Positions 8,285 through 53,687 of a stretch of 64,000 nucleotides of DNA are shown here, in pieces. The first letter of the stretch is position 1. The number at the start of each line of letters is the position of its first letter. The notes under the pieces were generated by a model, which was not told the DNA's origin, made no database searches, and was given only the letters and a program-made list of their open reading frames with translations. This stretch comes from an uncultured Oscillibacter sp. Lineage in GTDB: Bacteria; Bacillota; Clostridia; Oscillospirales; Oscillospiraceae. The stretch spans positions 1 to 64,000 of the forward strand of contig NZ_CANTJS010000012.1 in NCBI RefSeq assembly GCF_947654275.1, read 5' to 3'. Both the position numbers and the translations under genes were made by a program.

Positions 8285-8420
8285 ATGGCCTCCTGTTGTC
8301 CGTTTTTTTCAGTCTATCATAGGACGACCTATTTTTCCACCCTTTTTATGGTCCTTTTTGGAGAATGGGACAGACTGCTCCGGAAACGCCCGGGCACATG
8401 AGCATTTTGAAAAAAGGGGG

Positions 8421-8480
8421 TTGACAAACCGGTCCGTCTGAGTATAATGAACATATGAACAGTCGTTCAAGTGTTCAAAT
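8421..8480 (+). promoter_or_regulatory. Promoter and overlapping ArsR-type operator of the metal operon
   Basis: TTGACA (8421-8426), 16-bp spacer, TATAAT (8443-8448). Just downstream, TGAAC (8456-8460) and GTTCA (8465-8469) form an inverted repeat, with a further GTTCA at 8473-8477. The AT-rich TGAAC-N-GTTCA arrangement over the transcription start is the classical SmtB/ArsR/CadC operator form. It predicts repression by the product of the next gene and release by metal. Confidence 0.8.
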
Positions 8481-37784: not shown

Positions 37785-37808
37785 AGCGATCCCCTCACAA
37801 TCAAAAAA

Positions 37809-37850
37809 GGGCAAAGACATCCCTTGGAAGAGACGTCTTTGCCTTTGCCC
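37809..37850 (-). promoter_or_regulatory. purF leader: hexaloop hairpin overlapping a terminator
   Basis: On the minus strand AGGC-AAAGAC-GTCT (37844-37831) forms a small hairpin with an A1/G4 hexaloop. The overlapping terminator pairs GGCAAAGACGTC (37843-37832) with GATGTCTTTGCC (37820-37809) and is followed by TTTTTTGA. Both cannot form at once. Confidence 0.65.
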
Positions 37851-37852
37851 GT

Positions 37853-37881
37853 ATTTTATAGCGTTTTGCAACGTCTGTCAA
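37853..37881 (-). promoter_or_regulatory. purF promoter
   Basis: On the minus strand TTGACA (37881-37876), 17-bp spacer, TAAAAT (37858-37853). It is divergent from the glnA promoter 34 bp away. Confidence 0.75.
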
Positions 37882-37914
37882 CTTTGGTTTTTCACAAAAA
37901 TCCGTCATCGCGCA

Positions 37915-37944
37915 TTGACACAGCGGCGGACTTTACGGTATAAT
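37915..37944 (+). promoter_or_regulatory. glnA promoter
   Basis: TTGACA (37915-37920), 18-bp spacer, TATAAT (37939-37944). The transcript should begin about 37951, at the base of the leader terminator. Confidence 0.85.
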
Positions 37945-37952
37945 CTCTTCCA

Positions 37953-37998
37953 GAGAGAGCAAAGGCGCCCCCTCAGGGGGTGTCTTTGCTCTTTTTAT
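37953..37998 (+). promoter_or_regulatory. glnA leader terminator with nested hexaloop hairpin
   Basis: A 17-bp terminator stem (37956-37972 with 37976-37992, two G-T pairs, TCA loop) runs into TTTTT. Its 5' arm contains GAGAGAGC-AAAGGC-GCCCCCTC, a hexaloop hairpin with two A-C mismatches. It has the same arrangement as the amtB, glnN, purF and asnB leaders. Confidence 0.65.
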
Positions 37999-38046
37999 GT
38001 CAGGTATTATCTCAATTAGCGGGCCTTGGGCCGAAAGGAGCACAGA

Positions 38047-39375
38047 ATGGAAGGATACACCAGAGAGGAGATCCTCCGCCTGATCCAGGAGGAGAACGTC
38101 CAGTTTATCCGGATGCAGTTTACCGATCTCTTTGGACAGCTGAAAAATGTGGCAATTACGGTATCGCAGATTGAGCGGGCACTGGACGGGGAGATCATGC
38201 TGGACGGCAGTTCTATCCAAGGCTCCGTCCGTGTGGAGGAGTCCGACCAGTATTTGAAGCCGGATTTGAATACGTTCGCCATCCTGCCCTGGCGTCCGCA
38301 GTATGGCAAGGTGGCCCGGATGATCTGCAATGTCCACAACCCGGACGGCTCTCCCTTTGCCGGAGATCCCCGGAACGTGCTGAAGCAGGCACTGCAGACG
38401 GTAGAGGATATGGGACTGGCCCTGAATGTGGGGCCGGAGCTGGAGTTTTTCCTCTTTCTCACTGATGAGGAGGGGAATCCCTCTACCAGGACCGCCGACA
38501 GAGCGGGATACTTTGACCTTGGTCCCCTGGATCACGGCGAGAGCACCCGCCGAGAGGTGGCTCTGGCGCTGGAGAAGATGGGAATCGGGGTGGAGGCCAG
38601 TCACCACGAGGTCGCTGCCGGACAGCACGAGATAGACCTGAAATACGCGGATGCCCTTACTGCCGCCGACAACATTATGACTCTCAAACTGGCTGTGAAG
38701 ACCCTGGCCCAGAAGAACGGACTCCACGCCACCTTCATGCCAAAGCCCCTGCGGGATGCGGCGGGCAACGGGATGCATATCAACCTCTCTCTGTTCCGTG
38801 AGGGACGGAATATGTTTTATGACGAAAGGGATCCACAGAGATTGTCCCTTCTGGCCCGGCAGTTTATCGCGGGCCTTCTGGAGCACGCCCGGGGATTCTG
38901 TGCGCTGGCCAATCCGCTGGTGAATTCCTACAAACGAATGGTGGCGGGCTACGAAGCTCCCTGCTGCCTGACCTGGTCCTCCGGCAACCGCTCTGCGCTC
39001 ATCCGAATTCCCGTTTCCAGAGGGCAGGGGACCCGCGTGGAGCTGCGGAGCCCCGACCCCACCTGTAATCCCTATCTGACGCTGGCGGCATGTCTCGCTG
39101 CAGGGCTGGACGGCATCCGGCGGGAGCTGGCGCCGCCGCCGGAGATTGCCGGAAACCTCTACCACATGTCGCCGGAAGAGCTGGCGTCGCGGGGAATCCG
39201 GAATCTGCCCTCGTCGCTGGAGGATGCCCTCCGGGCCATGGAGGCGGATCCGGTGGTAATAAAGGCGTTGGGGCCTTATGCTGCGCGGTATATTGAGGGC
39301 AAACGGCAGGAGTGGGAGGAATACCGAACACAGATATCCCAGTGGGAGCTGGACCGCTGCCTGATTACATGGTGA
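38047..39375 (+). CDS. glnA: Glutamine synthetase type I
   Basis: A 442-residue enzyme of the short (GSI-alpha) Bacillus/Clostridium type. Motifs: 'LDGSSIQGSVRVEESDQYLKPD' (latch/beta-grasp), 'GPELEFFLF', 'ASHHEVAAGQHEIDLKY', 'NGMHINLSL', 'NSYKRMVAGYEAPCCLTWSSGNRSALIRIPVSRG' and 'ELRSPDPTCNPYLTLA'. There is no adenylylation-site segment (NLYDLP type). It makes glutamine from glutamate, ammonia and ATP. ATG 38047 has AAAGGAG; the upstream in-frame ATG does not. Confidence 0.96.
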   Translation: MEGYTREEILRLIQEENVQFIRMQFTDLFGQLKNVAITVSQIERALDGEIMLDGSSIQGSVRVEESDQYLKPDLNTFAILPWRPQYGKVARMICNVHNPDGSPFAGDPRNVLKQALQTVEDMGLALNVGPELEFFLFLTDEEGNPSTRTADRAGYFDLGPLDHGESTRREVALALEKMGIGVEASHHEVAAGQHEIDLKYADALTAADNIMTLKLAVKTLAQKNGLHATFMPKPLRDAAGNGMHINLSLFREGRNMFYDERDPQRLSLLARQFIAGLLEHARGFCALANPLVNSYKRMVAGYEAPCCLTWSSGNRSALIRIPVSRGQGTRVELRSPDPTCNPYLTLAACLAAGLDGIRRELAPPPEIAGNLYHMSPEELASRGIRNLPSSLEDALRAMEADPVVIKALGPYAARYIEGKRQEWEEYRTQISQWELDRCLITW

Positions 39376-39382
39376 GCCGCAG

Positions 39383-39919
39383 ATGGAGCGAGCGATTGTC
39401 GCTTTTGCAGATGAGCGCATCCGGCAAAAGAGCCTGTGCCTGCTGAGCAGGGAGGGCTGGGAAACCATGGCCTGCGCTTCCGGTGCGGAGGTGATCCGCA
39501 TGGCCCGGCAGCTGGGCAGCGCCATGGTAATCTGTGGCTTTCACCTGCCGGATATGACGGCGGATACCCTGGCGGCAGAGCTGCGGGGAACAGCGGTGCT
39601 GCTGGTCATAGCCAGGGCTTCCTATTTGGACCTGTGCGGCGGAGAAAATCTCTACAAGCTGCCTCTGCCCGCCACACATGCTGAGTTCATGGCCTCGTTA
39701 AGGCTGCTTTTGGATTTTGAGAGCACACATCTCCGCCACCCTGTTTCCGGGAGAGGAGAAGAGGCCCAGCAGCTGATCCGGAAGGCCAAGGAGCTCCTCA
39801 TGGATGTAAACCGCATGAGCGAGGAGGAGGCCCACCGGTTTCTCCAGCGCCGGGCCATGGACAGCGGCATGAAGCTGGCGGAAGCCGCCCGTTGGGTTGT
39901 GGAGTCTTACAATGTATGA
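39383..39919 (+). CDS. ANTAR-domain antiterminator with pseudo-receiver (NitR-like)
   Basis: A 178-residue protein. Residues 1-115 resemble a receiver fold but the phospho-acceptor motif is poor ('AMVICGFHLPDM'), so it may sense another way. The C terminus (about 125-176) is an ANTAR domain: 'LIRKAKELLMDVNRMSEEEAHRFLQRRAMDSGMKLAEAARWVV', with the paired alanines and arginine expected. ANTAR proteins bind RNA hairpins with AxxGxx hexaloops and prevent termination. It starts 7 bp after glnA, in the middle of genes whose leaders carry such hairpins. Confidence 0.85.
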   Translation: MERAIVAFADERIRQKSLCLLSREGWETMACASGAEVIRMARQLGSAMVICGFHLPDMTADTLAAELRGTAVLLVIARASYLDLCGGENLYKLPLPATHAEFMASLRLLLDFESTHLRHPVSGRGEEAQQLIRKAKELLMDVNRMSEEEAHRFLQRRAMDSGMKLAEAARWVVESYNV

Positions 39920-39989
39920 CGTTGGGTGAATTGTATAATTTTGCAAAAGTTTTTTGTGTAGATACTCTAATATCTTGTATCCCCCTCTA

Positions 39990-40019
39990 TTGACGGAGCT
40001 GCCGGCGCCGTGGTAAAGT
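39990..40019 (+). promoter_or_regulatory. amtB promoter
   Basis: TTGACG (39990-39995), 18-bp spacer, TAAAGT (40014-40019). Confidence 0.65.
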
Positions 40020-40032
40020 GTACCCATCACAA

Positions 40033-40085
40033 GGGCAAAGGCGTCCTGAGAGCGTGACTCTCGGACGCCTTTGCCCGTTTCATTT
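40033..40085 (+). promoter_or_regulatory. amtB leader: hexaloop hairpin overlapping a terminator
   Basis: GGGC-AAAGGC-GTCC (40033-40046) is a hexaloop hairpin (one G-T pair). The alternative is a 14-bp stem of 40033-40046 with 40063-40076, topped by GAGAG/CTCTC. The T run after it is weak (GTTTCATTT). Confidence 0.65.
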
Positions 40086-40099
40086 AAGGAGGGAGTACT

Positions 40100-41818
<1,719 letters not shown>

Positions 41819-41949
41819 ATCGGTGCGTATGTGAATGGAGAACATTCGTCCGCAGCGCATAAATGCACAAAGAGTGCTGACACAAAAAGAAATCTTTTGG
41901 CGCAGTTACTGAAAACGGGAGAATAGCCCGATATTTTCAGGAAAAAGCG

Positions 41950-41979
41950 TTGACAGCTGCGTATTTTTGCACGTATAAT
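41950..41979 (+). promoter_or_regulatory. gltB promoter
   Basis: TTGACA (41950-41955), 18-bp spacer, TATAAT (41974-41979). Confidence 0.85.
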
Positions 41980-41988
41980 AAAAAATAT

Positions 41989-42034
41989 GAGAGAGCAACG
42001 GGGCCTCCCAAGGGGTCCCGTTGCTCTTTTTTTA
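41989..42034 (+). promoter_or_regulatory. gltB leader terminator
   Basis: AGAGCAACGGG (41992-42002) pairs with CCCGTTGCTCT (42017-42027), followed by seven T. The 5' arm holds an AACGGG hexaloop flanked by GC/GC, with a weaker outer stem than in the sister leaders. Confidence 0.6.
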
Positions 42035-42060
42035 TTTTGCCAGCGAACGGAGTGTTTTTT

Positions 42061-45000
42061 ATGTCATTTGTGTCTCCGCTGTACAGCTCCCGGTTTGAGC
42101 ACGACGCCTGCGGCATTGGCGCGGTTGTGGACATCCGGGGACGAAAATCCCATGGGACGGTGGACAGCGCTTTAAAAATCGTGGAAAAGCTGGAGCACCG
42201 CGCCGGAAAGGACGCCGCCGGAGAGACCGGCGACGGCGTGGGCCTGCTGCTCCAGGTGCCCCACAGGTTGATGGTAAAAGCCACCGGTAACCTCGGAATC
42301 GCTCTGGGGGGTGAACGGGATTATGGCGTGGGGGTGTTCTTCTTCCCCCAGGACAGGGTCAGGCGGGCCCAGGCCCAAAAGATGCTGGAGATCATTGTGG
42401 ACAAGGAGGGACTGGAGTTCCTGGGCTGGCGGGACGTGCCGGTCCATCCGGAGGTGCTGGGGGAGAAGGCGAGAAGCTGTATGCCCCATATCTGCCACTG
42501 CTTCGTGAAGCGCCCGGAGGACTGTGCCCGGGGTCTGGAGTTCGACCGGAGGCTGTATGTTGTCCGGCGGGTATTTGAACAGTCCAATGTCAATACCTAT
42601 ATCCCCTCTTTCTCCAGCCGGACGATTGTCTATAAGGGAATGTTTCTGGTGGAGCAGCTGCGGCAGTTCTATGCCGATTTGACGGACCCGGACTGTCAGA
42701 GCGCCATCGCCCTGGTCCACTCCCGTTTCTCCACCAATACCTCCCCCTCCTGGGAGAGGGCGCACCCCAACCGGTATATTCTCCACAACGGGGAGATCAA
42801 TACCATCCGGGGAAATGCGGACCGGATGCTGGCCCGGGAGGAGACCGTCTCCTCTCCCGTTATGGATGACGATATGGATAAGATTCTGCCTGTTGTGGAC
42901 CAGAACGGGTCAGACTCCGCTATGCTGGACAACACCCTGGAGTTCCTGATGATGAACGGTATGGAGCTGCCTCGGGCCGTCATGCTCTGCATCCCGGAGC
43001 CGTGGGCTAAGGATAAGCGGATGGACCGGGAGAAGCGGGATTTCTACCACTATTACGCCACCATGATGGAGCCCTGGGACGGGCCCGCCGCCATCGTCTT
43101 CTCTGACGGCGACACCGTGGGGGCGGTGCTGGACCGGAACGGACTTCGGCCCTGCCGGTGGTATCTCACAGACGATCAACAACTGATTCTCTCCTCCGAG
43201 GTGGGAGTGCTGGATGTGCCGCCGGAGTGCATTGTAAAAAAGTCCCGCCTTCAGCCGGGACGGATGCTGCTGGCGGACCTCCGGGAAGGCCGGCTGGTGG
43301 ACGACGCAGAGCTCAAATCCCGCTATGCCCGCCGCCAGCCCTACGGCGAGTGGCTGGACGCCAATCTGATTCACCTCCGGGACCTCCCCATTCCCAACAA
43401 GCGGGTGGAGACCCATCCTCAGGAGCTGCGGGACCGGCTGTATAAGGCCTTCGGCTACACCTATGAGGAGGTGAAGGATGCCATTCTCCCCATGGCCCGG
43501 GATGGGATGGAGCCCACCTCCGCCATGGGGGTGGACACGCCGCTGGCAGTACTCAGCGAGCGCCGCCAACCCCTGTTCAACTACTTCAAGCAGCTTTTCG
43601 CCCAAGTGACGAATCCCCCCATCGACGCCATCCGGGAAGAAATTGTCACCGACACCACCGTTTATGTGGGTCCCAGCGGCAACCTGCTGGAAGAGAAAGC
43701 GTCCAACTGTACGGTTCTTCAAATCCAAAACCCCATTTTGACCTCGGTGGACCTGATGAAAATTCGGCATATGGACCGCCCGGGCTTCCATGTGGAGACC
43801 GTTTCCCTGCTGTACTACAAGGGATCCCCTCTGGCCAACGCCTTGGACCGTCTGGTGGTGAATGTGGACCGGGCCTATAAGAAGGGCGCCAACATTATCA
43901 TTCTCTCGGATCGGGGCGTGGATGAAAATCACGTGGCGATTCCCTCTCTCCTGGCGGTGAGTACCCTGGAGCAGCACCTGGTTCGGACCAAAAAACGGAC
44001 AGCGGTCTCCATGGTTCTGGAGAGCGCGGAGCCCCGGGACGTCCACCATTTTGCAACGCTTCTGGGATACGGCGCCCAGGCGATCAATCCCTATCTGGCC
44101 CAGGAGTGCGTGGAGGAGCTGGTGGAGCGGGGACTGCTGGACAAGGAGTCCTCCGTGGCCGTCAGGGACTACAATGAGGCCATTCTCCACGGAATTGTGA
44201 AGATCGCCTCCAAAATGGGAATCTCCACCATCCAGTCCTACCAGTCCGCCCAGATTTTTGAGTGCGTGGGCATCAACAGGGCCACTGTGGACCGGTACTT
44301 CACCAACACGGTCAGCCGTGTGGAGGGCGTGGGGCTGGAGGAAATCGGAGAAGGCGTAGAGTGGAATCACAGTCAGGCTTTCGACCCTCTGGGTCTGGGT
44401 TTTGACTCCACGCTGGATTCCGCAGGGATTCACAAGCTCCGTTCCGGACCGGACAAAGAGGACCATATGTACAACCCGCGCACCATTCTCCTTTTGCAGA
44501 AGGCGGCGCGGGAAGGGAGCTATGAGATTTTTAAGGAGTACAGTGCCCTGGTGGATTTTGCCGACAAACCCCACACGCTGCGGGGCCTGTTGGATTTCCG
44601 TGTTTCGGAGGACGGGGGAATCCCCCTGGAAGAGGTGGAACCGGTGGAGAGCATTGTCCGGCGGTTCAAGACCGGGGCCATGAGCTATGGCTCCATCTCC
44701 CGGGAGGCCCACGAGTGCATGGCTATTGCGATGAACCGCATTGGCGGAAAATCCAACTCCGGCGAGGGCGGCGAGGCACGGGAGCGGCTGAGCAGTGACC
44801 GCCGCTCCGCCATCAAACAGGTGGCCTCAGGCCGCTTCGGCGTCACCAGTGAGTATCTGGTCAGCGCTGATGAGATTCAGATCAAGATGGCCCAGGGGGC
44901 CAAGCCCGGCGAGGGGGGGCACCTGCCGGGGAAAAAGGTATATCCCTGGATTGCCAGGACCCGGTGTTCTACCCCCGGCGTGACCCTGATCTCCCCGCCG

Positions 45001-46584
45001 CCCCACCATGACATCTACTCCATCGAGGACCTGGCCCAACTGATATATGATTTGAAAAACGCCAACCGGTTCGCCCGGATCAGTGTCAAACTGGTCAGCG
45101 AGGCGGGAGTAGGCACGATTGCCGCCGGCGTTGCCAAGGCCGGGGCGCAGGTGGTGCTGATCTCCGGCCACGACGGCGGTACCGGAGCGGCCCCCCGCAG
45201 CTCCATTCAGGGGGCGGGCCTGCCCTGGGAGCTGGGGGTGGCGGAGGCCCATCAGACCCTGATACAAAACGACCTCCGCCAGCAGGTGGTGATTGAAGCC
45301 GATGGCAAGCTGATGACAGGCCGGGACGTGGCAATTGCCTGTATGCTGGGGGCGGAGGAATTCGGTTTTGCCACTGCGCCCCTGGTGGCCATGGGCTGCT
45401 GCATGATGCGGGTGTGTAATCTGGACACCTGTCCCGCCGGTATTGCCACCCAGGACCCAGAGCTCCGGAAGCGGTTTTCCGGCAGGCCTGAGTACGTGGA
45501 GAACTTTATGTATTTTGTAGCGCGGGAGCTGCGGGAGTACATGGCCTCCCTGGGCGTACGGACCGTGGACGAGCTGGTGGGCCGGTGCGATTTGCTGCGG
45601 GTTCGGGAAAAACTGATAACTCGCCGGGCGGAGGCCCTGAATCTGGACGCACTGCTGCAAAATCCCTGTGGTGACCATGTGCCCCACTTCGACCCCGCCG
45701 CAGTCTACGACTTTCAGCTGGAGAGGACGGCGGATATGCGGGTGCTGATGGAAAAACTGGGAAAAAGTCTCAGGGACAGGAGGAGCGGGCGTCTGGATAT
45801 CCGGATTTCCTCCACGGACCGGGCTTTCGGCACCCTGTTCGGTTCAGAGATCACCCGAACCTGCGAAAACGGCCTGCCGGAGGACAGCTATGTCATCACC
45901 TGCCGCGGCGGCGGCGGGCAGTCCTTCGGGGCATTTATCCCCAGGGGGCTGACGCTGGACCTGGAGGGGGACTGCAACGACGGATTCGGCAAGGGCCTCT
46001 CCGGCGGCAAGCTGATTCTGCATCCGCCGACGGGGGGGACCGGGTTTAAGCCGGGGGAGAACATCATCGTGGGCAACGTGGCTCTCTATGGAGCCACCGG
46101 CGGCAAGGCCTTCATCAACGGTATGGCCGGAGAGCGCTTCTGCGTCCGCAACTCCGGTGCCTCCGCTGTGGTGGAGGGCGTGGGCGACCATGGCTGCGAG
46201 TACATGACCGGAGGCCGGGCAGTGATCCTGGGGCCCACCGGGAAGAACTTTGCGGCGGGCATGTCCGGAGGCGTGGCCTACGTGCTGGACGAACGGCATG
46301 ATTTGTATCTCCGCCTCAATAAGGAGCAGGTTCAGGCTGCGGAACTGACAGAGGCCCACGATATTGCGGAGCTTCGTGCCCTGATTGAGGAGCATGTAGC
46401 CGCCACCGGTTCCCCCAGAGGGAAGCAAATTCTGGCGGCGTTCCAGTCCTATATTCCCTGCTTCAAGAAGGTCATGCCCAGAGACTATGACCGGATGCTT
46501 CGGGCTATTGCCCAGCAGGAGGAAAAGGGAATGAGCCGGGAGCAGGCGGAGATCGAGGCGTTTTATGCCACCGCGAGAGGATAA
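42061..46584 (+). CDS. gltB: Glutamate synthase large subunit
   Basis: A 1507-residue protein. A short propeptide precedes the nucleophile in 'DACGIGAVVD'. The class II amidotransferase (about 1-400) has 'HSRFSTNTSPSWERAHP' and 'HNGEINTIRGN'. A central domain is followed by the FMN domain ('VSEAGVGTIAAGVAKAGAQVVLISGHDGGTGAAPRSSI') and the Fe-S cysteines 'CCMMRVCNLDTCPAGIATQ', then the C-terminal GXGXG beta-helix. It transfers glutamine amide nitrogen to 2-oxoglutarate. ATG 42061 follows a GGAG site. It is co-transcribed with gltD. Confidence 0.97.
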   Translation: MSFVSPLYSSRFEHDACGIGAVVDIRGRKSHGTVDSALKIVEKLEHRAGKDAAGETGDGVGLLLQVPHRLMVKATGNLGIALGGERDYGVGVFFFPQDRVRRAQAQKMLEIIVDKEGLEFLGWRDVPVHPEVLGEKARSCMPHICHCFVKRPEDCARGLEFDRRLYVVRRVFEQSNVNTYIPSFSSRTIVYKGMFLVEQLRQFYADLTDPDCQSAIALVHSRFSTNTSPSWERAHPNRYILHNGEINTIRGNADRMLAREETVSSPVMDDDMDKILPVVDQNGSDSAMLDNTLEFLMMNGMELPRAVMLCIPEPWAKDKRMDREKRDFYHYYATMMEPWDGPAAIVFSDGDTVGAVLDRNGLRPCRWYLTDDQQLILSSEVGVLDVPPECIVKKSRLQPGRMLLADLREGRLVDDAELKSRYARRQPYGEWLDANLIHLRDLPIPNKRVETHPQELRDRLYKAFGYTYEEVKDAILPMARDGMEPTSAMGVDTPLAVLSERRQPLFNYFKQLFAQVTNPPIDAIREEIVTDTTVYVGPSGNLLEEKASNCTVLQIQNPILTSVDLMKIRHMDRPGFHVETVSLLYYKGSPLANALDRLVVNVDRAYKKGANIIILSDRGVDENHVAIPSLLAVSTLEQHLVRTKKRTAVSMVLESAEPRDVHHFATLLGYGAQAINPYLAQECVEELVERGLLDKESSVAVRDYNEAILHGIVKIASKMGISTIQSYQSAQIFECVGINRATVDRYFTNTVSRVEGVGLEEIGEGVEWNHSQAFDPLGLGFDSTLDSAGIHKLRSGPDKEDHMYNPRTILLLQKAAREGSYEIFKEYSALVDFADKPHTLRGLLDFRVSEDGGIPLEEVEPVESIVRRFKTGAMSYGSISREAHECMAIAMNRIGGKSNSGEGGEARERLSSDRRSAIKQVASGRFGVTSEYLVSADEIQIKMAQGAKPGEGGHLPGKKVYPWIARTRCSTPGVTLISPPPHHDIYSIEDLAQLIYDLKNANRFARISVKLVSEAGVGTIAAGVAKAGAQVVLISGHDGGTGAAPRSSIQGAGLPWELGVAEAHQTLIQNDLRQQVVIEADGKLMTGRDVAIACMLGAEEFGFATAPLVAMGCCMMRVCNLDTCPAGIATQDPELRKRFSGRPEYVENFMYFVARELREYMASLGVRTVDELVGRCDLLRVREKLITRRAEALNLDALLQNPCGDHVPHFDPAAVYDFQLERTADMRVLMEKLGKSLRDRRSGRLDIRISSTDRAFGTLFGSEITRTCENGLPEDSYVITCRGGGGQSFGAFIPRGLTLDLEGDCNDGFGKGLSGGKLILHPPTGGTGFKPGENIIVGNVALYGATGGKAFINGMAGERFCVRNSGASAVVEGVGDHGCEYMTGGRAVILGPTGKNFAAGMSGGVAYVLDERHDLYLRLNKEQVQAAELTEAHDIAELRALIEEHVAATGSPRGKQILAAFQSYIPCFKKVMPRDYDRMLRAIAQQEEKGMSREQAEIEAFYATARG

Positions 46585-46598
46585 GGAGGGGTGACGAT

Positions 46599-47993
46599 AT
46601 GGGAAAGATCACTGGATTTTTGGAATATGACCGGCGGGAGCTGGCGGACCGCCCGCCGCTGGAGCGGGTCCGGGACTGGGAGCCCTTCCGCATCCCCCTG
46701 ACGGCGGAAGCCCGCCGGGAACAGGGAGGGCGGTGTATGAACTGCGGCGTCCCATTCTGCCAATCCGGCATCCGGTGGGAGGGGCGGGACTTTGGCTGTC
46801 CCCTGCATAATTTGATTCCCGAGTGGAACGACATGATCCATGCGGGGAACCCCTCTCATGCCCTGAGCCGCCTGCTGAAAACCAATAATTTCCCGGAGTT
46901 CACCGGGCGGGTCTGTCCCGCGCCCTGCGAGGGGGCGTGCATCTGTGGAATGTACGGCGATGCCGTGACCATCCGGGACAACGAACTGAGCGTCATAGAG
47001 GAGGCCTTTGCCGCCGGGGCGGTGCGGCGCCGCCGTCCGCCTCAGTGGTCGGGAAAGAAGGTGGCGGTGGTGGGTTCCGGCCCGGCGGGCCTGGCGGCGG
47101 CGGACCAGCTGAATCACCGGGGCCACTCTGTCACCGTTGTGGAGCGGGAGGAGCGGCCCGGAGGGCTTTTGACCTACGGCATTCCCAATATGAAGCTGCC
47201 CAAGGACATCGTAAAGCGCAGAATTGACCTGATGACGGACGAGGGGGTCAGCTTTGTCACCGGTGTGGATGCGGCGGACCCCCAGGTGGCCCAGAGGCTG
47301 CTGCGGGACTATGATGCGGTAATCCTCTGCTGCGGCGCGGAGCGGCCCCGCCCCCTTGGATTGGAGACAGAGGGAATCTCTGGCATCTGCTACGGCACGG
47401 AGTTTTTGAAGGCCGCTGTGGAACAGCGGCAGTTTGGTAAAACGCCCGCCGTTCCCACAGCGGAAGGGCGGGACGTGATCATCATCGGTACCGGCGACAC
47501 CGCCTCCGACTGCGTGGCCACGGCCCTGCGGCAGGGATGCCGGTCCATTGCACAGCTGGTGCGCCGTCCGGAGGCAGACTACCTGCAAAACGGTGTTCTG
47601 CCCCGGGACTGTGCCCATGAGGAGGCTGCTGCCCTGTTTGGAGAGGATCCCAGGCGGTTTGGCGTGCAAATTAAGGAGATCCGTGTGGAGAACGGCGCAC
47701 TGACCGCCGTGACCACCACGGAGGGAGACGCTCTGCCCTGCGGGCTCCTGATCGCCGCCACCGGCTTTGCCGGATGCGCGGGCGAAGTGTGCAAGGCCTT
47801 CGGCGTGGCCTGGGAAGAGACGGTCCGGACTTCGGAGGGCGGCTTTGCCACCACCGTGGAGAAGGTCTTTGCCGCCGGGGATATGCGCCGGGGCCAGTCT
47901 CTTGTGGTATGGGCCATCGCGGAGGGGCGGAGTGCCGCCGCGGAGGTGGATGCGTACCTCAATGGCTGCACCAATCTTGTACGGGTGGTATAG
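46599..47993 (+). CDS. gltD: Glutamate synthase small subunit
   Basis: A 464-residue FAD/NAD(P)H oxidoreductase. The N-terminal Fe-S cysteines lie in '[13 protein letters not shown]...[13 protein letters not shown]' and '[15 protein letters not shown]'. The FAD fold is '[28 protein letters not shown]' and the nucleotide fold '[22 protein letters not shown]'. It passes electrons to GltB. It starts 15 bp after gltB with AAGGAGGGG. Confidence 0.96.
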
Positions 47994-48099
47994 GTTCTGG
48001 AAAGAGAAATGCCCATCGTGGAAAGTTCATGAAAAATTTTTCGCGGCAGCGGAATTTTCCGGTGTTTCGGCCAAGATTTCTGAAACCCCTGAAAAATGA

Positions 48100-48128
48100 T
48101 TGACAGGGTCCCGGCGAGGGCGTATAAT
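48100..48128 (+). promoter_or_regulatory. glnN promoter
   Basis: TTGACA (48100-48105), 17-bp spacer, TATAAT (48123-48128). Confidence 0.85.
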
Positions 48129-48136
48129 GCCCCCAT

Positions 48137-48189
48137 AAAGGCAAAGGCGTCTTTAGGGAGTATTCCCGGAAGGCGCCTTTGCCCTTTTT
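48137..48189 (+). promoter_or_regulatory. glnN leader: hexaloop hairpin overlapping a terminator
   Basis: AAAGGC (48137-48142), loop AAAGGC (48143-48148), GTCTTT (48149-48154) make a six-pair hexaloop hairpin at the transcript's 5' end. The competing terminator pairs GGCAAAGGCG (48140-48149) with CGCCTTTGCC (48174-48183), with an inner GGGA/TTCCC stem, then CTTTTT. Confidence 0.7.
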
Positions 48190-48219
48190 ATGCGATGATC
48201 GCGGAAAGGGTGAACGAAC

Positions 48220-50316
48220 ATGGCAGCACTGCCAGAGTATTTCGGAAGTTTGGTATTTGATGATCGGGTGATGAAAGCGAATCTGTCCGCCGAAGTGTAC
48301 CAGTCTCTTCGCAGGACCATTGATGAGGACGCGAGGCTGGATATTGGCGTGGCCAACGCGGTGGCCTCCGCTATGCGGGATTGGGCGGTGGCCCATGGGG
48401 CAACCCACTTTACCCACTGGTTTCAGCCCCTTACCGGTGTTACCGCCGAGAAGCACGACAGTTTTATCTCACCCGCTCCGGACGGCGGCGTCATCATGGA
48501 GTTCTCCGGCAAAGAGTTGATCCGAGGAGAGCCGGATGCCTCCTCTTTCCCATCCGGCGGACTGCGGGCCACCTTTGAGGCACGGGGCTACACCGCGTGG
48601 GACCCCACCTCCTACGCGTTTATCAAGGACCGGACATTGTGCATTCCCACCGCCTTCTGCGGCTACAATGGTGAGGCGCTGGACAAGAAGACGCCTCTGC
48701 TGCGCTCCATGGAGGCGCTGAACCGACAGGCGCTGCGCATTCTGCGCCTGTTTGGAAACACGGAGGTAAAGCGGGTAAGCACCGCTGCGGGCCCGGAACA
48801 GGAGTATTTCCTGGTGGATGCCAAGCTGTGGGAGCAGCGCCGGGACCTGCGCTTCACCGGACGCACGCTTTTCGGCGCCCGGCCTCCCAAGGGACAGGAG
48901 ATGGATGATCACTACTTTGGCACGATCAAGCCCCGGGTGGCCGCCTACATGGAGGATCTGAATCAGGAGCTTTGGAAGCTGGGCATCCTGGCCAAGACCC
49001 AGCACAACGAGGTGGCTCCGGCTCAGCATGAACTGGCCCTCATCTACTCCACCACGAATGTTTCCACAGACCACAACCAGCTGACTATGGAGATCATGCA
49101 GAAAGTAGCCGCCCGCCACGGCCTGGTCTGTCTGCTCCACGAGAAACCCTTTGAGGGCGTGAACGGCTCCGGCAAGCACAACAACTGGTCGTTGTCCACT
49201 GACGCCGGCGTCAATCTCCTCTCTCCCGGAGAGACGCCCTATGAAAACGCCCAGTTCCTGCTGTTTTTGTGCGCCGTTATCCAGGCGGTGGATGACTTTC
49301 AGGACCTTCTGCGCATCTCAGTGGCTACCGCCGGAAATGACCACAGACTGGGAGCCAACGAGGCTCCGCCCGCCGTGGTGTCCATGTTCCTGGGCGAGGA
49401 GCTGACGGCCATTCTGGACGCAATCGAGCATGACGCGCCCTACACCGGCGTGAAGGCGGGGAAGGTGAAGCTGGGAGCGGACGTTCTGCCCCGGTTCCGC
49501 CGGGATACCACTGACCGCAACCGAACCTCGCCCTTTGCCTTTACGGGAAATAAGTTTGAATTCCGCATGGTGGGTTCCTCGGACTCCATCGCCTGTGCCA
49601 ACATTATGCTCAATGCCGCCATGGCCGAGAGCCTGAAGCGCTTTGCCGATCAGCTGGAGGGAACAGGGGACTTTGAATCCGCCCTGCAGGGCCTGATCCG
49701 TGATACCATTCGTGACCACAAGCGGATTATCTTCAACGGCAACGGCTACGATGCCGCCTGGATCGAGACGGCTGTCGGTCAGAGGGGGCTGATGAACTAC
49801 CCCAGTACGCCGGACTGCGTTCCCCATCTGCTGGACCAGAAGAACGTGGATATGCTCACCTCCCACGGCGTGTATACCAAGGCGGAACTGGTTTCCCGCT
49901 GCGAGGTCACGCTGGACAACTACTGTAAGACCATTTTCATTGAGGCCAGGACCATGGCGGACATGGCCCGTACCGAGATCCTTCCCGCCATACAGGCATT
50001 TGCTGCCGACACCGCAAGGGCAGCGGCCGGCAAAAAGGCGCTGAGTCCCAGCTGTGCCTGTGCGTATGAGATGGCGTTGGTAGAGAAGCTGTCCGGTCTC
50101 ACAGATCAGATTGACACCGGGACAGCGGAGCTGGAGCGGCTGGTGGAGGAACTGGCAGGAGCCGGCGATATAAGGACGGAGTCCGAGCGCATCCGGGACC
50201 GGGTGCTGCCGCAGATGGAACGGCTGCGCCGGGCTTGCGATGAGGCAGAGACCGTCACCGCAAAGAAGTACTGGCCATTTCCCAACTATGGCGACCTGCT
50301 GTTTAGTGTGAGATAA
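48220..50316 (+). CDS. glnN: Glutamine synthetase type III
   Basis: A 698-residue GSIII with '[22 protein letters not shown]', '[10 protein letters not shown]', '[29 protein letters not shown]', '[11 protein letters not shown]', '[14 protein letters not shown]' and the long C-terminal extension of this class. Start 48220 has GAAAGGG upstream and matches the family N terminus. Having both GSI and GSIII under similar leaders suggests use under different nitrogen conditions. Confidence 0.96.
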
Positions 50317-50417
50317 CAGGGGGAACGGGACCGGGCGGCAATATCCTCTGAAGAGCAGGAAGCTGTTTGGGAAATGGGGAACAGCAGTTTCCAAATAACT
50401 AAAAAAACTGCAAAAAG

Positions 50418-50455
50418 CCGCGGAGTTCTGTCGACTGACAGGACTCCGCGGTTTT
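50418..50455 (+). terminator. Terminator of glnN
   Basis: CCGCGGAGT (50418-50426) pairs with ACTCCGCGG (50443-50451), with an inner CTGTC/GACAG (50428-50432/50437-50441) and TTTTA after it. Confidence 0.8.
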
Positions 50456-50597
50456 ACATGGAACACAAAGATGACGGCCGTCATTTTTCTGGACACGTGG
50501 CCAATGATGTTCATATAGCGCAGTCCCTCCGCCGATTTCTTTTCGTAATGGGAGGTACCGCAATGTCATCAGAGGAAAAGGCCTTCAGGTAGAAGGA

Positions 50598-51509
50598 CTA
50601 CCAAAATCGTTTCTTCTTCATAATCCACAAGCAGAGGAACACGATCAGCGCACTGCCAATGATGACCGCTGGATATCCATATTTCCATGTCAGCTCCGGC
50701 ATTCCGGTAAAATTCATCCCGTACCACCCGGCTACCAGGGACAGGGGAAGGAAAATCGTAGTCACGATGGTAAGAACCTTCATAATCCGGTTCTGGCGGA
50801 TGTCTATTTCCGCCTGGAACAGCTCCCGCAGCTGCAGGCCGTATTCCCGGAGCAGCTGTGCCTCGCTGTTCAGACGCCCGATCCGCTTCTCCGCCATGTG
50901 GAACATACGAAGTTCTCTTTCGCCGAAGTACCCGTTTTCATTTTCCTGAAACTCACAGACCATATCGTCCAGCTGGGTGTAGTACCGCATCCAGCCGGCA
51001 ATCTCCTTGCGCAGCGCCGTCATCCTGGGGTTAAACCCCTCCATCCCGCCGGACAGGACCTGATCCTCCAGCTGCTCCAGACGGTCTCCAATGCCTTGGA
51101 GGTGGTGCAAATCCTTGGCGATCAGCAATTCTATAAATTCATAAAAAAATCCGCCGATACCGTTTTCCAGGTGTGCGTTCTCTTTCCGGAGGCGCTGCAC
51201 GGCGGAGCGGGCCGTCCCGGTATCGTCGCACAGTACCACCCATCCGGGAGTCAGAAGATAGCCGAACGCGATGGGAACGCCGTCCCGTGTGCGCCTGGGG
51301 GTCACAATCGTTCCGCACAGGCAGTTGTGCCGGGCTTCCGCTTTGCATACACGGGCATCCCGCGCAGAGGGCGTGTGGCAAAGGACACGCTCCAGGCCGG
51401 GGATGGAGACGCCCCGCTCCAGTTCCTCCGACGTCAGCAGAACAAGGACATCCCCGTCCATTTTCTTCTCCAGCGGAGCCAAAGCCGCGCTGATATTGTA
51501 CCGATACAT
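50598..51509 (-). CDS. corA: CorA-family divalent cation transporter
   Basis: A 303-residue protein with a long soluble N-terminal domain, a coiled-coil stalk (about 150-235) and two C-terminal membrane spans. The signature after the first span is 'YGMNFTGMPELTWKYGYP', the GMN motif of the CorA/MIT family that imports Mg2+ (or Co2+/Ni2+). ATG 51509 is chosen over 51599 because GGGAGG precedes it. It is a single gene between glnN and asnB on the opposite strand to glnN. Confidence 0.9.
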   Translation of the reverse strand: MYRYNISAALAPLEKKMDGDVLVLLTSEELERGVSIPGLERVLCHTPSARDARVCKAEARHNCLCGTIVTPRRTRDGVPIAFGYLLTPGWVVLCDDTGTARSAVQRLRKENAHLENGIGGFFYEFIELLIAKDLHHLQGIGDRLEQLEDQVLSGGMEGFNPRMTALRKEIAGWMRYYTQLDDMVCEFQENENGYFGERELRMFHMAEKRIGRLNSEAQLLREYGLQLRELFQAEIDIRQNRIMKVLTIVTTIFLPLSLVAGWYGMNFTGMPELTWKYGYPAVIIGSALIVFLCLWIMKKKRFW

Positions 51510-51727
51510 AAGATTGCCTCCCGCATCATGATACTGCCATTGTATCGCGTCCATCTGAAATGGTACACTAAAATATAAAATCGCATATTGTGTGAACAAA
51601 TATTTGGTATTTTGTAAACGTCAGCACTCTTCTATTGGCAGTACTAATTTGACAGAGTACAACAAAGCTGTTCAAAAGAGGAACGCCAAAAAGGCCTCCT
51701 CAACAGGGCATTTTCATGAGATGTAAG

Positions 51728-51770
51728 AAAGGCGCCCCGGAATCCCCCGATTCCGGGGCGCCTTTTTGTC
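51728..51770. terminator. Terminator behind asnB
   Basis: A 17-bp perfect stem (51728-51744 with 51749-51765), loop CCCC, and T run on the plus strand. The minus strand also ends in TTTCTT. Confidence 0.8.
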
Positions 51771-51801
51771 AACGTGACCGGTTCCGAGTTTGGATTCCCG
51801 C

Positions 51802-53631
51802 TTACAGCAGCTGGACCTGATAGGCTCGCAGCCAGTGATCCATCTGCAAAAAGTAAGCGATCGTCTGAGGCCGGCTCATCAGCTGGCCATACCAGGGCCA
51901 GGGACTCTCGTAAGTCAAAAGATTCTCCAGCGCCTCCCGGCGGACCACGGCGAAAAGAGGCGAATTTCCGTCATCCAGCAGCCGGTGCAGCCTCTGGGCG
52001 ACTGTCTCCAGATAGATGGGGTGAACGGTCTTGGGATAGGGACTTTTTTTCCGATGGAGCACGGATTTTGGCAGCCAGTCCGCCGCCGCGGACCGGAGCA
52101 GACCCTTCTCCTGTCCCCCAAGCTCCCGAAGCGCGGGCGGCACATTGTACAAATACTCCACAATCTGCCAGTCGCAAAACGGCACACGGACTTCCAGCGC
52201 GCTCCACATGCTCATGCGGTCTTTCCGGTCCAGAAGCGTTTGCATAAACCAGTCCATATTCAGCCGTGTGAGCCGACGGACCCGCTTCTGCTCCGGCGTA
52301 TCGTCGTCCAGGCAGTCCGTCTCCGCCAGCGTCTTCTGCCAGCGCTGTCGGACAAACTCATCGGCGTCCAATCCCTGGGCGTACTCCGGCGTCAGGAAAG
52401 ACGCCCGCCAAGCCGTGGACTGCGCCCAGGGGAATCCGTTCTCCGCCCGGACCGCCGGGTCCCGGAACCAGGGATAGCCTCCGAAAATCTCGTCGGCGCA
52501 CTCTCCGGAGAGGGCCACCGTCACATCCCCGCGCACCTCCCGGCAGAACAGCAGCAGCGACGAATCCACGTCCGCCATTCCCGGAAGGTCCCGGGCCTCC
52601 GCGGCGTCATCCAAGGCCGCGGCCACCTGGACGGGATCTAACACCACATTGGTATGCAGAGTATCCAAACAGTCCGCCATCGCTTCGATATAGGGCCCGT
52701 CGGCGGAGGGCTGAAATTTTCCGGCGGTGAAATAGCGGTCATTCTCCCGGTAATCCACCGAGAAGGTCCTCAGCCGTTCCCCATGCTCTCCCAGGGCCTC
52801 CGCCGCCACGGCGGAAATGACACTGGAATCCAATCCGCCGGAGAGGAAGGTCCCAATAGGCACATCACTGACCAACTGCCTCCGGATGGCGTCCTGGACC
52901 AGGTCCCGAACATGGGCCACGGTGTCCGCCTCGTTTTCCAGATGGGGCCGGGCGGTGAGGCTCCAGTATTTCCACGGCCGCAGGCCCTCCCGGTCAAAGA
53001 CGCCGCACTGTCCCGGCAGCAGTTCCCGTACATTCCGGAAAACCCCCTGCCCCGGCGTCCGGCCCGGGCCGATCAGAAGCAGCTCCGCCGCGCCCTCCGC
53101 ATCCACCTCCGGCGGAATATCCGGGTGCCGCAGAATTGCTTTGATCTCCGAGGCGAATACCAAGGTTCCATCCGCCGTCACCGAGTAAAAAAGAGGCTTT
53201 ACCCCCATCCGATCCCGGGCCAGAAACAGCGTTTCCCCATCCCAGACCGCAAAGGCGAAAATGCCGTTCAGGCGGTCTACACACGCGGGCCCCCACTCCA
53301 TGCAGGCTTTCAGCAGCATCTCCGTATCCGAGTGACCGTCAAACTCCCAGCCCGCTTCCGTCAACTCCCGGCGCAGCTCCGGCGTGTTGTACAGCTCTCC
53401 GTTGTAAACCAGGGTGCAGGTCTGGCCGTTTCGGCGGGCGGTCATGGGCTGACGGCCATTTTCCGGGTCCACCACGCACAGTCGGACATGGGCCAGGGCC
53501 GCCCGCGGGCTCAGGTAGATCCCGTCTTCATCCGGCCCCCGCCTGCGTAAGACGGACTGCATTTCCAGCAGCGTTTTCTCCCGCTCCCGCAGGTCCTGCT
53601 CAAAGTCAATCATTCCGGCGATTCCGCACAT
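51802..53631 (-). CDS. asnB: Asparagine synthetase (glutamine-hydrolysing)
   Basis: A 609-residue enzyme. Cys2 ('MCGIAGMIDF') is the glutaminase nucleophile; 'RRRGPDEDGIY' and 'LVYNGELYN' follow. The synthetase domain has the PP-loop 'FLSGGLDSSVISA' and 'ALSGECADEIFGGYPWF'. It makes asparagine from aspartate, glutamine and ATP. AGGAGGG precedes the ATG. Its leader carries the clearest hexaloop/terminator pair of the window, which ties it to the nitrogen regulon although it reads in the opposite direction. Confidence 0.96.
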   Translation of the reverse strand: MCGIAGMIDFEQDLREREKTLLEMQSVLRRRGPDEDGIYLSPRAALAHVRLCVVDPENGRQPMTARRNGQTCTLVYNGELYNTPELRRELTEAGWEFDGHSDTEMLLKACMEWGPACVDRLNGIFAFAVWDGETLFLARDRMGVKPLFYSVTADGTLVFASEIKAILRHPDIPPEVDAEGAAELLLIGPGRTPGQGVFRNVRELLPGQCGVFDREGLRPWKYWSLTARPHLENEADTVAHVRDLVQDAIRRQLVSDVPIGTFLSGGLDSSVISAVAAEALGEHGERLRTFSVDYRENDRYFTAGKFQPSADGPYIEAMADCLDTLHTNVVLDPVQVAAALDDAAEARDLPGMADVDSSLLLFCREVRGDVTVALSGECADEIFGGYPWFRDPAVRAENGFPWAQSTAWRASFLTPEYAQGLDADEFVRQRWQKTLAETDCLDDDTPEQKRVRRLTRLNMDWFMQTLLDRKDRMSMWSALEVRVPFCDWQIVEYLYNVPPALRELGGQEKGLLRSAAADWLPKSVLHRKKSPYPKTVHPIYLETVAQRLHRLLDDGNSPLFAVVRREALENLLTYESPWPWYGQLMSRPQTIAYFLQMDHWLRAYQVQLL

Positions 53632-53644
53632 ATGTTGTCCCTCC

Positions 53645-53687
53645 TAAAAAACGGGAGCTCGCGAACCATCGCGAGCCCCCTTGCTCG
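53645..53687 (-). promoter_or_regulatory. asnB leader: hexaloop hairpin overlapping a terminator
   Basis: On the minus strand CGAGC-AAGGGG-GCTCG (53687-53672) is a perfect five-pair hairpin with an A1/G4 hexaloop. The competing terminator pairs GCTCGCGA (53676-53669) plus GGG with TCGCGAGC (53664-53657) plus CCC and runs into TTTTTT (53651-53645). The two share GGGGGCTCG and exclude each other. Confidence 0.75.

Follow-up and report, generated by a model that had tools for sequence, protein, structure and literature searches.

Single-hexaloop leaders as candidate ANTAR antiterminators in a nitrogen gene cluster of an uncultured Oscillibacter

Control of nitrogen genes by ANTAR proteins is already known from the work of Ramesh et al. 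(2012) and from NitR. The dual-hexaloop targets (eut, nasF, amiE), as presented by Ramesh et al. (PMC3369931), have AnnGnn hexaloops on short stems that overlap a terminator and include nitrogen genes such as glutamine and glutamate synthases, ammonium transporters and P-II. Walshe et al. (2022, PMC8934654), in describing the EutV-hexaloop structure and a model of successive binding, find that EutV can bind an isolated single hexaloop and that antitermination requires both hexaloops; one alone is therefore not known to be enough. NitR of Clostridium saccharobutylicum and the C. thermocellum glnA-gltBD ANTAR cluster, compared here by description (PMC6316151, PMC4676874), place an ANTAR protein with GS/GOGAT genes, where it is thought to antiterminate.

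The leaders described here share the hexaloop, short stem, terminator overlap and type of target gene with the dual-hexaloop systems, and the single hexaloop as predicted binding unit with EutV. They differ from the targets in PMC3369931 in having one hexaloop, near the predicted 5' end of the RNA, which is C-G-closed with a RANGGC consensus and has G1 in 20 of 72 sites. With NitR and the C. thermocellum cluster they have in common an ANTAR protein tied to GS/GOGAT genes; the descriptions of those two mention neither the hexaloop architecture nor asnB, gdhA or purF as targets. It is the single-hexaloop form that is new; no paper on such an antiterminator upstream of glnA turned up in searches confined to open PubMed Central papers.

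The window is a stretch of 64,000 nucleotides from an uncultured Oscillibacter sp. (contig NZ_CANTJS010000012.1) and contains the following genes.

36327..37784, minus strand: purF, amidophosphoribosyltransferase (TIGR01134, 6.3e-152)
38047..39375, plus strand: glnA, type I glutamine synthetase (TIGR00653, 4.3e-155)
39383..39919, plus strand: ANTAR protein gene, the proposed antiterminator (PF03861, 2.1e-14)
40100..41818, plus strand: amtB with a fused C-terminal P-II domain (PF00909 and PF00543)
42061..46584, plus strand: gltB, large glutamate synthase subunit (identified by ORF translation and tblastn to relatives)
46599-47993, after gltB: gltD
48220..50316, plus strand: glnN, type III glutamine synthetase (PF12437, 6.5e-78)
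51802..53631, minus strand: asnB, glutamine-hydrolysing asparagine synthase (TIGR01536, 1.8e-146)

The first-pass annotation, made from the DNA letters, had reported hexaloops overlapping intrinsic terminators in the leaders of purF, glnA, amtB, gltB, glnN and asnB, and an ANTAR gene 7 bp downstream of glnA. The ANTAR gene is confirmed, and each hexaloop is found at the position given, with the terminator overlap seen in every leader. The elements are listed below.

37803..37881, minus strand: purF leader, -35 at 37881, -10 ending 37853
37844-37831, minus strand: purF hexaloop hairpin AGGC-AAAGAC-GTCT, loop A1 at 37840
37843-37810, minus strand: purF terminator, U-tract to 37803
37915..37996, plus strand: glnA leader, TTGACA at 37915, TATAAT to 37944
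37961-37966, plus strand: glnA hexaloop AAAGGC on an interrupted stem, loop A1 at 37961
about 37952-37992, plus strand: glnA terminator, U-tract to 37996
39990..40085, plus strand: amtB leader with promoter
40032-40047, plus strand: amtB hexaloop hairpin AGGGC-AAAGGC-GTCCT, loop A1 at 40037
40033-40076, plus strand: amtB terminator, weak U-tract
41950..42033, plus strand: gltB leader with promoter
41997-42002, plus strand: gltB hexaloop AACGGG on an interrupted stem, loop A1 at 41997
41989-42030, plus strand: gltB terminator and U-tract
48100..48189, plus strand: glnN leader with promoter
48136-48155, plus strand: glnN hexaloop hairpin TAAAGGC-AAAGGC-GTCTTTA, loop A1 at 48143
48140-48183, plus strand: glnN terminator, U-tract to 48189
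53646..53687, minus strand: asnB leader, no clear promoter
53687-53672, minus strand: asnB hexaloop hairpin CGAGC-AAGGGG-GCTCG, loop A1 at 53682
53680-53653, minus strand: asnB terminator, U-tract to 53646

All six leaders have a C-G-closed hexaloop with A1 and G4 and an overlapping strong intrinsic terminator, and the two structures use nucleotides in common. The U-tract of the amtB terminator is poor (GTTTCATTT). Agreement with TTGACA/TATAAT is 12/12 for glnA, gltB and glnN, 11 for purF, 9 for amtB and 6 for asnB, and in the five leaders with a recognisable promoter the distance from the -10 box to the hexaloop is 12-17 nt. The fold energy of the entire leaders ranges from -23.8 to -37.4 kcal/mol. 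Folded by itself, the 5' stretch adopts the hexaloop in purF (-2.4 kcal/mol), glnA (-4.9), amtB (-6.1), gltB (-5.5) and glnN (-5.6), while in asnB, for which a start was assumed since the true one is not clear, the hexaloop is not the minimum-energy fold. The glnA and gltB stems had been called weaker; they are interrupted and fail a strict filter demanding an uninterrupted stem, but their energies lie within the range of the others (-2.4 to -6.1), so they are interrupted yet not energetically weaker. The AGAGAGC-AARGGC-GC hairpin of the glnA leader recurs in four related loci (L037-L040), and the copy of the purF leader in L035 has a 9-bp stem.

Sequence comparison suggests that the six leaders are quite probably single-hexaloop ANTAR antiterminators run by the glnA-linked ANTAR protein. 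The RNA would start a few nucleotides upstream of a small C-G-closed hairpin with a RANGGC-like hexaloop. If the hairpin is unheld, the much more stable terminator would capture its nucleotides and RNA polymerase would stop. Binding of the nascent hexaloop by the ANTAR protein would block the terminator and allow read-through of glnA-ANTAR, amtB, gltBD, glnN, asnB and probably purF, presumably at nitrogen shortage. The ANTAR gene would thus sit behind one of its own switches. The ANTAR interpretation of the first-pass annotation is supported, with protein binding and antitermination as its predicted steps. In support, loop and stem are conserved, the hairpin overlaps the terminator and lies near the -10 box, no second hexaloop is clear, leaders and ANTAR genes co-occur, and the window protein, like most of its relatives, has lost the phospho-acceptor.

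Conservation of the loop was examined in 71 loci gathered via the ANTAR gene, which contain 110 C-G-closed loops with a promoter and a U-run. The combination A1/G4 occurs in 52 of the 110 and G1/G4 in 20, with every other combination seen 0-6 times; control loops closed by G-C, A-T or T-A have no excess of either. The 72 A/G1-G4 loops are strongly biased at the remaining positions (A at position 2 in 64, G or A at position 5 in 67, C at position 6 in 52), so the loop is constrained rather than freely varying. A second set comprised 118 non-redundant upstream regions (of 129) from the gene families of the window, leaving out six near-duplicate loci, asnB matches below 35% identity and matches starting past residue 25. 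It has 59 C-G-closed hexaloops of any sequence (stem of at least 4 bp) that overlap a terminator, and 44 of these are A1/G4, one being the purF leader read on the wrong strand. Twenty dinucleotide shuffles of the same regions give a mean of 1.55 matches and zero A1/G4.

The stem is also conserved as a paired structure. When sites are chosen blind to pairing (CAANGGCG with a -10 box and a U-run, n=31), stem positions 2-4 are paired at frequencies of 0.97, 0.81 and 1.00, compared to 0.45-0.50 for all 551 octamers. Stem covariation is 0.749 against 0.289 for shuffled and at most 0.219 for slid alignments, in seeds that had been chosen by pairing. Between the end of the -10 box and the stem lie a median of 10 nt (range 2-22). 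Among 46 close glnA homologues, a script with strict criteria detects an A/G1-G4 hexaloop-terminator upstream of 27 and nothing upstream of 18, which include the glnA of the window with its interrupted stem. Single-hexaloop terminators of this kind recur in nature beside an evident partner protein and are short enough for in vitro transcription.

The ANTAR domain of the window protein scores 53.4 bits with PF03861 (cut-off 27.3), and its gene is the only ANTAR gene detected in its own genome (93%-complete). Oscillibacter sp. 1-3 (L035) has an ANTAR protein with 99% identity to it. Of 73 related ANTAR ORFs, 57 are within 400 bp of glnA. The N-terminus is receiver-like but without the phospho-acceptor Asp, as seen in alignment to Rv1626 and EutV and in a family alignment; in the latter the window protein has Gly there and 7 of 73 relatives have Asp. 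Compared to EutV as described in PMC8934654, the equivalents of Glu160 (73/73) and Met172 (68/73) are mostly conserved, while the position of Tyr164, which stacks on G4, is His in the window protein and 67 of 73 relatives; Arg142 has no conserved counterpart among the 73. The leaders also differ from that system in being without the recruitment hairpin (P1). Since there is no phosphorylation site and glnA adjoins the gene, it may be, more speculatively, that glutamine synthetase or P-II passes on the signal by direct contact and no kinase is involved.

Among 20 genomes of the class with the leader, 19 of the ANTARs looked at carry His where EutV has Tyr164 and lack the phospho-acceptor Asp; in 20 without the leader, 11 ANTARs combine Tyr with the Asp and are not linked to glnA. 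A rule equating the His-type ANTAR with the single hexaloop is too simple and was rejected, as Tyr/Phe-type glnA-linked ANTARs also occur with a single hexaloop. Nine glnA-linked ANTARs from R2-negative genomes comprise seven of the Tyr/Phe type and two of the His type. The script finds a single hexaloop upstream of glnA in Tyr/Phe-type loci L267, L268, L271, L274 and L276, and one is seen by eye upstream of glnA in L277 and of amtB in L279; in the His-type locus L269 the script finds none upstream of glnA. The Asp is kept in the ANTARs of L267, L268 and L274. Asp-keeping glnA-linked ANTARs of the Phe type, three in number, likewise come with a single hexaloop; phosphorylation therefore need not be lost. 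This makes slightly less likely a wider reading, doubtful if possible, that throughout the class a single hexaloop at the very 5' end suffices and that glnA-linked ANTARs, mostly phosphorylation-free, sense nitrogen by contact with the neighbouring glutamine synthetase (or P-II). If this were true, a ready-made ANTAR dimer would do without a recruitment hairpin such as the two-hairpin model has.

Genomes without an ANTAR gene mostly lack the leader. In the family it is found in 80 of 101 ANTAR-positive (56 of 77 after removal of the 24 genomes supplying model seeds) and 8 of 49 ANTAR-negative genomes, and in the class in 100 of 156 and 18 of 137. Within 18 genera that mix both kinds the link is weaker (18/23 versus 6/19, p 0.004) and one genus is reversed. 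No R2 match at 1e-3 is found in 21 of the 101 ANTAR-positive family genomes. Among the eight ANTAR-negative family exceptions, a contig of G027 stops inside the ANTAR gene and four leaders are on contigs of 3.3-5.4 kb, which leaves G105, G035 and G117 (the last a weak match) unexplained. The ANTAR-negative class genome G185 has five leader matches.

It is improbable that these are dual-hexaloop ANTAR leaders whose second hexaloop was overlooked, for instance because it is non-canonical or because a promoter further upstream makes a longer RNA that contains it. Two hexaloops are required in EutV-type antitermination, a possible second one is present in L044 and L077, and a true dual motif occurs upstream of glnA in L264 and L283, from another genus. 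A second hexaloop is found in 12 of 104 cases, about twice the mean of 6.2 for mononucleotide shuffles of the downstream part, but inside their range (maximum 13). A strict dual scan of 87 loci and 1.43 Mb (the window, 65 family or named loci and 21 class loci) returns one match, an overlapping one, and none in seven further glnA-linked loci; the short distance from the -10 box to the stem also argues against this reading. Five EutV-like loci (L049, L052, L075, L079 and L093) have no dual hexaloop nearby. These results agree with the first-pass annotation, which saw no clear second hexaloop. Slightly less probable still is an ANTAR protein that binds the hexaloop to the opposite effect, favouring termination or shutting off expression at nitrogen excess. 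Sequence cannot tell the sign of the effect, but the hairpin and terminator use the same nucleotides, known ANTAR systems antiterminate, and NitR is reviewed as an inducer of GS/GOGAT at nitrogen limitation (PMC6316151).

The hairpin could instead be a start-site DNA operator for a repressor or activator, with the RNA structure incidental. The element is an inverted repeat close behind the -10 box, and a palindromic operator would likewise yield covariation of the arms. This reading is very unlikely: conservation falls on the C-G-closed loop, which is not palindromic, while the arms differ in length and sequence between sites; the arms are also shared with the terminator, and matches follow the presence of a gene whose RNA-binding domain binds such loops. 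Least probable of all is a protein-free attenuator or riboswitch sensing glutamine or another metabolite. It would fit short structured leaders upstream of glutamine-related genes and the purC leader with a similar loop in G035, a 99%-complete genome in which no ANTAR was found, but no Rfam family comes near its gathering score, so small a hairpin, with its 6-nt loop, gives little room for a pocket, and the leaders co-occur with ANTAR genes.

The regulon was sought beyond the window in its own genome. Model R1 gives no convincing leader there (150 of 1323 first-look candidates scored, match contexts called coding by eye only, asnB missed). The pattern GCAANGRSG...TTTTT also gives none (five loci inspected closely, others as printed); it has 46 matches versus 29 for a reversed control and recovers five of the six window leaders, amtB being missed by design. 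Therefore, the own-genome regulon looks confined to the window cluster within the limits of these scans. A weak R2 match at 8408-8473 was rejected as a promoter without such a hairpin. At gathering score, Rfam returns one tRNA alone in the window; two matches are far below their cut-offs, among them Pseudomonas P11 at 39930-40069 (28.1 versus 70 bits), which was rejected.

The first-pass annotation had included purF and asnB in the regulon, which is supported for asnB and, for purF, in its own species group only. Leaders of purF are present in the window and L035, and six other regions taken as purF, some of them doubtful homologues, have no hexaloop leader; purF is the weakest regulon member. 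In other genera, asnB leaders occur in L226 and L230, and L254 is an R2 match. The reading offers a nitrogen control circuit for many Clostridia, and the simple model predicts asnB, gdhA, split glutamate synthase and perhaps purF as targets. Of 29 class loci returned, none from the window's own family, 27 involve glnN, split gltB, gdhA, amtB or asnB.

The window genes considered here, in their order along the contig, are:
purF, minus strand
glnA, followed by the ANTAR gene
amtB with a fused P-II domain, 40100-41818 (PF00543, C-terminal)
gltB and gltD, assigned by translation and relatives
glnN
CorA-like gene, minus strand, named by translation only
asnB, minus strand

Among named genomes, Oscillibacter sp. 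1-3 is the nearest; its ANTAR protein is 99% identical. The hexaloops of all six leaders, with their coordinates and overlapping terminators, agree with the first-pass annotation. Since amtB has its own C-terminal P-II domain, an ammonium transporter and a nitrogen sensor are combined in one protein under one leader. A sigma-70-type promoter is recognisable in five of the six leaders, matching at 12/12 positions for glnA, gltB and glnN, 11/12 for purF and 9/12 for amtB; the asnB leader has no recognisable promoter match (6/12). The hexaloop is the minimum in 5/6 leaders when the 5' part is folded alone, and the whole-leader fold is the terminator in 6/6. The glnA and gltB hexaloop stems, which had been noted as weaker, are interrupted but are not the weaker ones in energy: their computed values (-4.9 and -5.5) are near those of amtB (-6.1) and glnN (-5.6) and better than that of purF (-2.4).

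Related loci were gathered through the ANTAR gene and not through the leader, 16 loci from named genomes and 60 from other genomes of the same family, the latter being the best-scoring part of the ANTAR matches. The regions upstream of glnA, glnN, gltB, amtB, purF and asnB, 118 after removal of redundancy, contain 59 terminator-overlapping hexaloops that are C-G-closed, whatever their sequence, and have a stem of 4 bp or more. Of these, 44 have A1/G4 and 10 have G1/G4, versus an average of 1.55 hexaloops and zero A1/G4 in shuffled controls. A wider scan covered 71 loci in all, the window among them (1.33 Mb, near copies L032-L034, L036, L088 and L089 excluded) for a C-G-closed loop with a promoter of at least 9/12 just upstream and a U-run downstream. 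It returned 110 sites: 52 A1/G4, 20 G1/G4 and 38 others, which are spread over the 14 remaining position 1/4 combinations at 0-6 each. At least one A/G1-G4 site was found in 48/71 loci. Controls with G-C, A-T and T-A closure gave 42, 32 and 32 sites, of which 1, 3 and 1 were A1/G4. The hexaloop consensus is C[RANGGC]G.

Under a stricter scan, the region before close glnA homologues contains an A/G1-G4 hexaloop with terminator in 27/46 cases, another loop in 1/46 and none in 18/46, the window's own interrupted glnA leader being counted among the 18. Distant glnA homologues, whose genes are usually operon-internal, have one in 7/40. The glnA leader loop starts with G in L055, L059, L061, L067, L070, L095 and L100; these leaders are mostly GAAC|GAAGGC|GTTC, even though ANTAR hexaloops are considered to conserve A1.

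In 42 aligned sites, whose seeds had been selected with stems already, 92.4% of cells are paired and the covariation score is 0.749 versus 0.289 shuffled and at most 0.219 slid. A stem-blind check picked sites solely by CAANGGCG, a -10 box and a U-run. Positions 2, 3 and 4 are paired in 97, 81 and 100% of these 31 sites; stem pairing across all 551 occurrences of the octamer CAANGGCG is 45-50%. Five control octamers with position 1 or 4 wrong gave 1-4 qualifying sites each, and related loops (GACG endings, GG[AGT]G endings and G1) gave 7, 14 and 9 sites, which were paired equally well or less well. Since both hexaloop arms lie in or near the 5' arm of the terminator, the terminator by itself does not account for the arm-to-arm match.

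A promoter-plus-hexaloop model (R2) was built on 30 leaders, all from loci fetched through their ANTAR gene. Genomes without an ANTAR gene mostly do not keep the leader, a check that had been proposed in the first-pass annotation: at E <=1e-3, R2 matched 80/101 ANTAR-positive and 8/49 ANTAR-negative family genomes (Fisher p 2e-13), and 100/156 versus 18/137 among 293 genomes of the class. The family counts are 56/77 versus 8/49 (p 5e-10) once the 24 sampled seed-donor genomes are set aside. Without three genomes of the own family, the class count is 97/153 ANTAR-positive; at 1e-5 the class counts are 54/156 versus 1/137. Relatedness weakens this association. In 18 genera seen to mix both kinds, the leader occurs in 18/23 ANTAR-positive and 6/19 ANTAR-negative genomes (p 0.004), being present in ANTAR-positive members only in 10 genera, in both kinds in five, in ANTAR-negative members only in one (g36) and in neither in two.

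Among the eight family exceptions, the G027 contig terminates within an ANTAR gene, and the contigs that hold the leaders of G110, G113, G077 and G026 are 3.3-5.4 kb long. G105, which has glnA then asnB, and G035 (99% complete), where the leader precedes purC-purA-purB, yielded no ANTAR gene. G117 gave a weak R2 match, at which no hairpin of this kind is seen. In the class, G185 has five R2 matches and no ANTAR gene was found.

The window ANTAR protein has 178 aa. It can be aligned with Rv1626 along most of the chain, and with EutV within the ANTAR domain. Among 73 distinct relatives, which include near copies, the phospho-acceptor column has Gly in 35, Asn in 24 and Asp in 7. EutV Tyr164 stacks on G4 (excerpts of PMC8934654); this position is His in 67/73 relatives. 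The Met172 equivalent is Met in 68/73 and the Glu160 equivalent is Glu in 73/73, and Arg142 shows no conservation. The ANTAR ORF has glnA within 400 bp upstream in 57/73. For 20 class genomes with the leader, 19 of the examined ANTARs are His-type and lack the phospho-Asp. For 20 without an R2 leader, 11 ANTARs have Tyr and Asp and are not glnA-linked, and nine of several types are glnA-linked. Seven of these nine belong to the Tyr/Phe type, and they too have a single hexaloop (five found before glnA by script; by eye, one before glnA and one before amtB); therefore, R2 has false negatives. The phospho-Asp is retained in 3/7, so what the single hexaloop goes with is glnA linkage; loss of the phospho-acceptor usually accompanies it, though not in every case.

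The stem begins a median of 10 nt (range 2-22) after the -10 box, and the A of a conserved CAT is approximately at the expected transcription start, start sites being inferred. This leaves little or no upstream room for a second hexaloop. Downstream, a second A1/G4 hairpin of at least 3 bp occurs in 12/104 leaders, partly from loci fetched by the leader model; this is about twice the mean of 200 mononucleotide shuffles but within their range (mean 6.2, maximum 13). A strict dual-hexaloop scan found one overlapping case in 87 loci and none in seven more glnA-linked loci missed by R2. The reported absence of a clear second hexaloop thus holds. A clean dual motif (6-bp stems, 21-nt linker) was found before glnA at L264:7667 and L283:1791 (minus strand). 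These two genomes belong to the same genus, and their ANTAR carries both Tyr and the phospho-Asp. Tandem hexaloop-terminator units about 77-112 nt apart precede glnN in L062, L076, L086 and L087, and glnA in L102. The whole units before glnN, each with its own terminator, are consistent with a self-contained unit, and two in tandem could sharpen the response.

ANTAR control of nitrogen genes is already known. The dual-hairpin set of Ramesh 2012 includes P-II, ammonium transporters and glutamate and glutamine synthases (excerpts of PMC3369931), and a review describes NitR as antiterminating the GS/GOGAT genes (excerpts of PMC6316151). Searches of open-access papers returned no single-hexaloop, 5'-terminal antiterminator class. 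The computed stability of the nascent hairpin is 2-6 kcal/mol versus 24-37 kcal/mol for the terminator; a protein holding the hexaloop would win only kinetically, over the stretch of about 24-36 nt from loop to U-tract. EutV binds isolated hexaloops, antitermination requires both, and the first is proposed as a recruitment site (excerpts of PMC8934654). A recruitment site of that kind is absent from the leaders here, so the window ANTAR should act without one; a phosphorylation-independent dimer may be one way to do so. The glnA adjacency suggests that glutamine synthetase may itself be contacted for nitrogen sensing, on the model of the GlnR system (excerpts of PMC9249791).

All 30 family loci returned, which include the window and at least 12 others that gave R2 seeds, have glnN, glnA, amtB or asnB. 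In the class loci, which are independent of the own family, 27/29 have glnN, a split glutamate synthase operon, gdhA, amtB or asnB, counted by gene presence at the locus; L245 and L258 do not. Individual targets, named by translation, are:
gdhA, L223 and L228
asnB, L226 and L230
PEP-synthase-like gene, L224:6211, leader GAGAC|AACGAC|GTCTC
purC (purC-purA-purB), L216:4530, loop AAAGAC

The leaders in L226 and L230 support asnB as a target in other genera; purF, proposed together with it, is supported solely in this species group. The L216 purC loop is identical to that of the window purF, in a genome that is 99% complete and in which no ANTAR gene was found. The L224 target is outside of obvious nitrogen metabolism. 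In L217, L211, L213 and similar loci of several family genomes, glnN and an archaeal-type split glutamate synthase operon diverge from an intergenic region that holds the leaders; the L217 operon ends with a short glnA and the start of the ANTAR gene.
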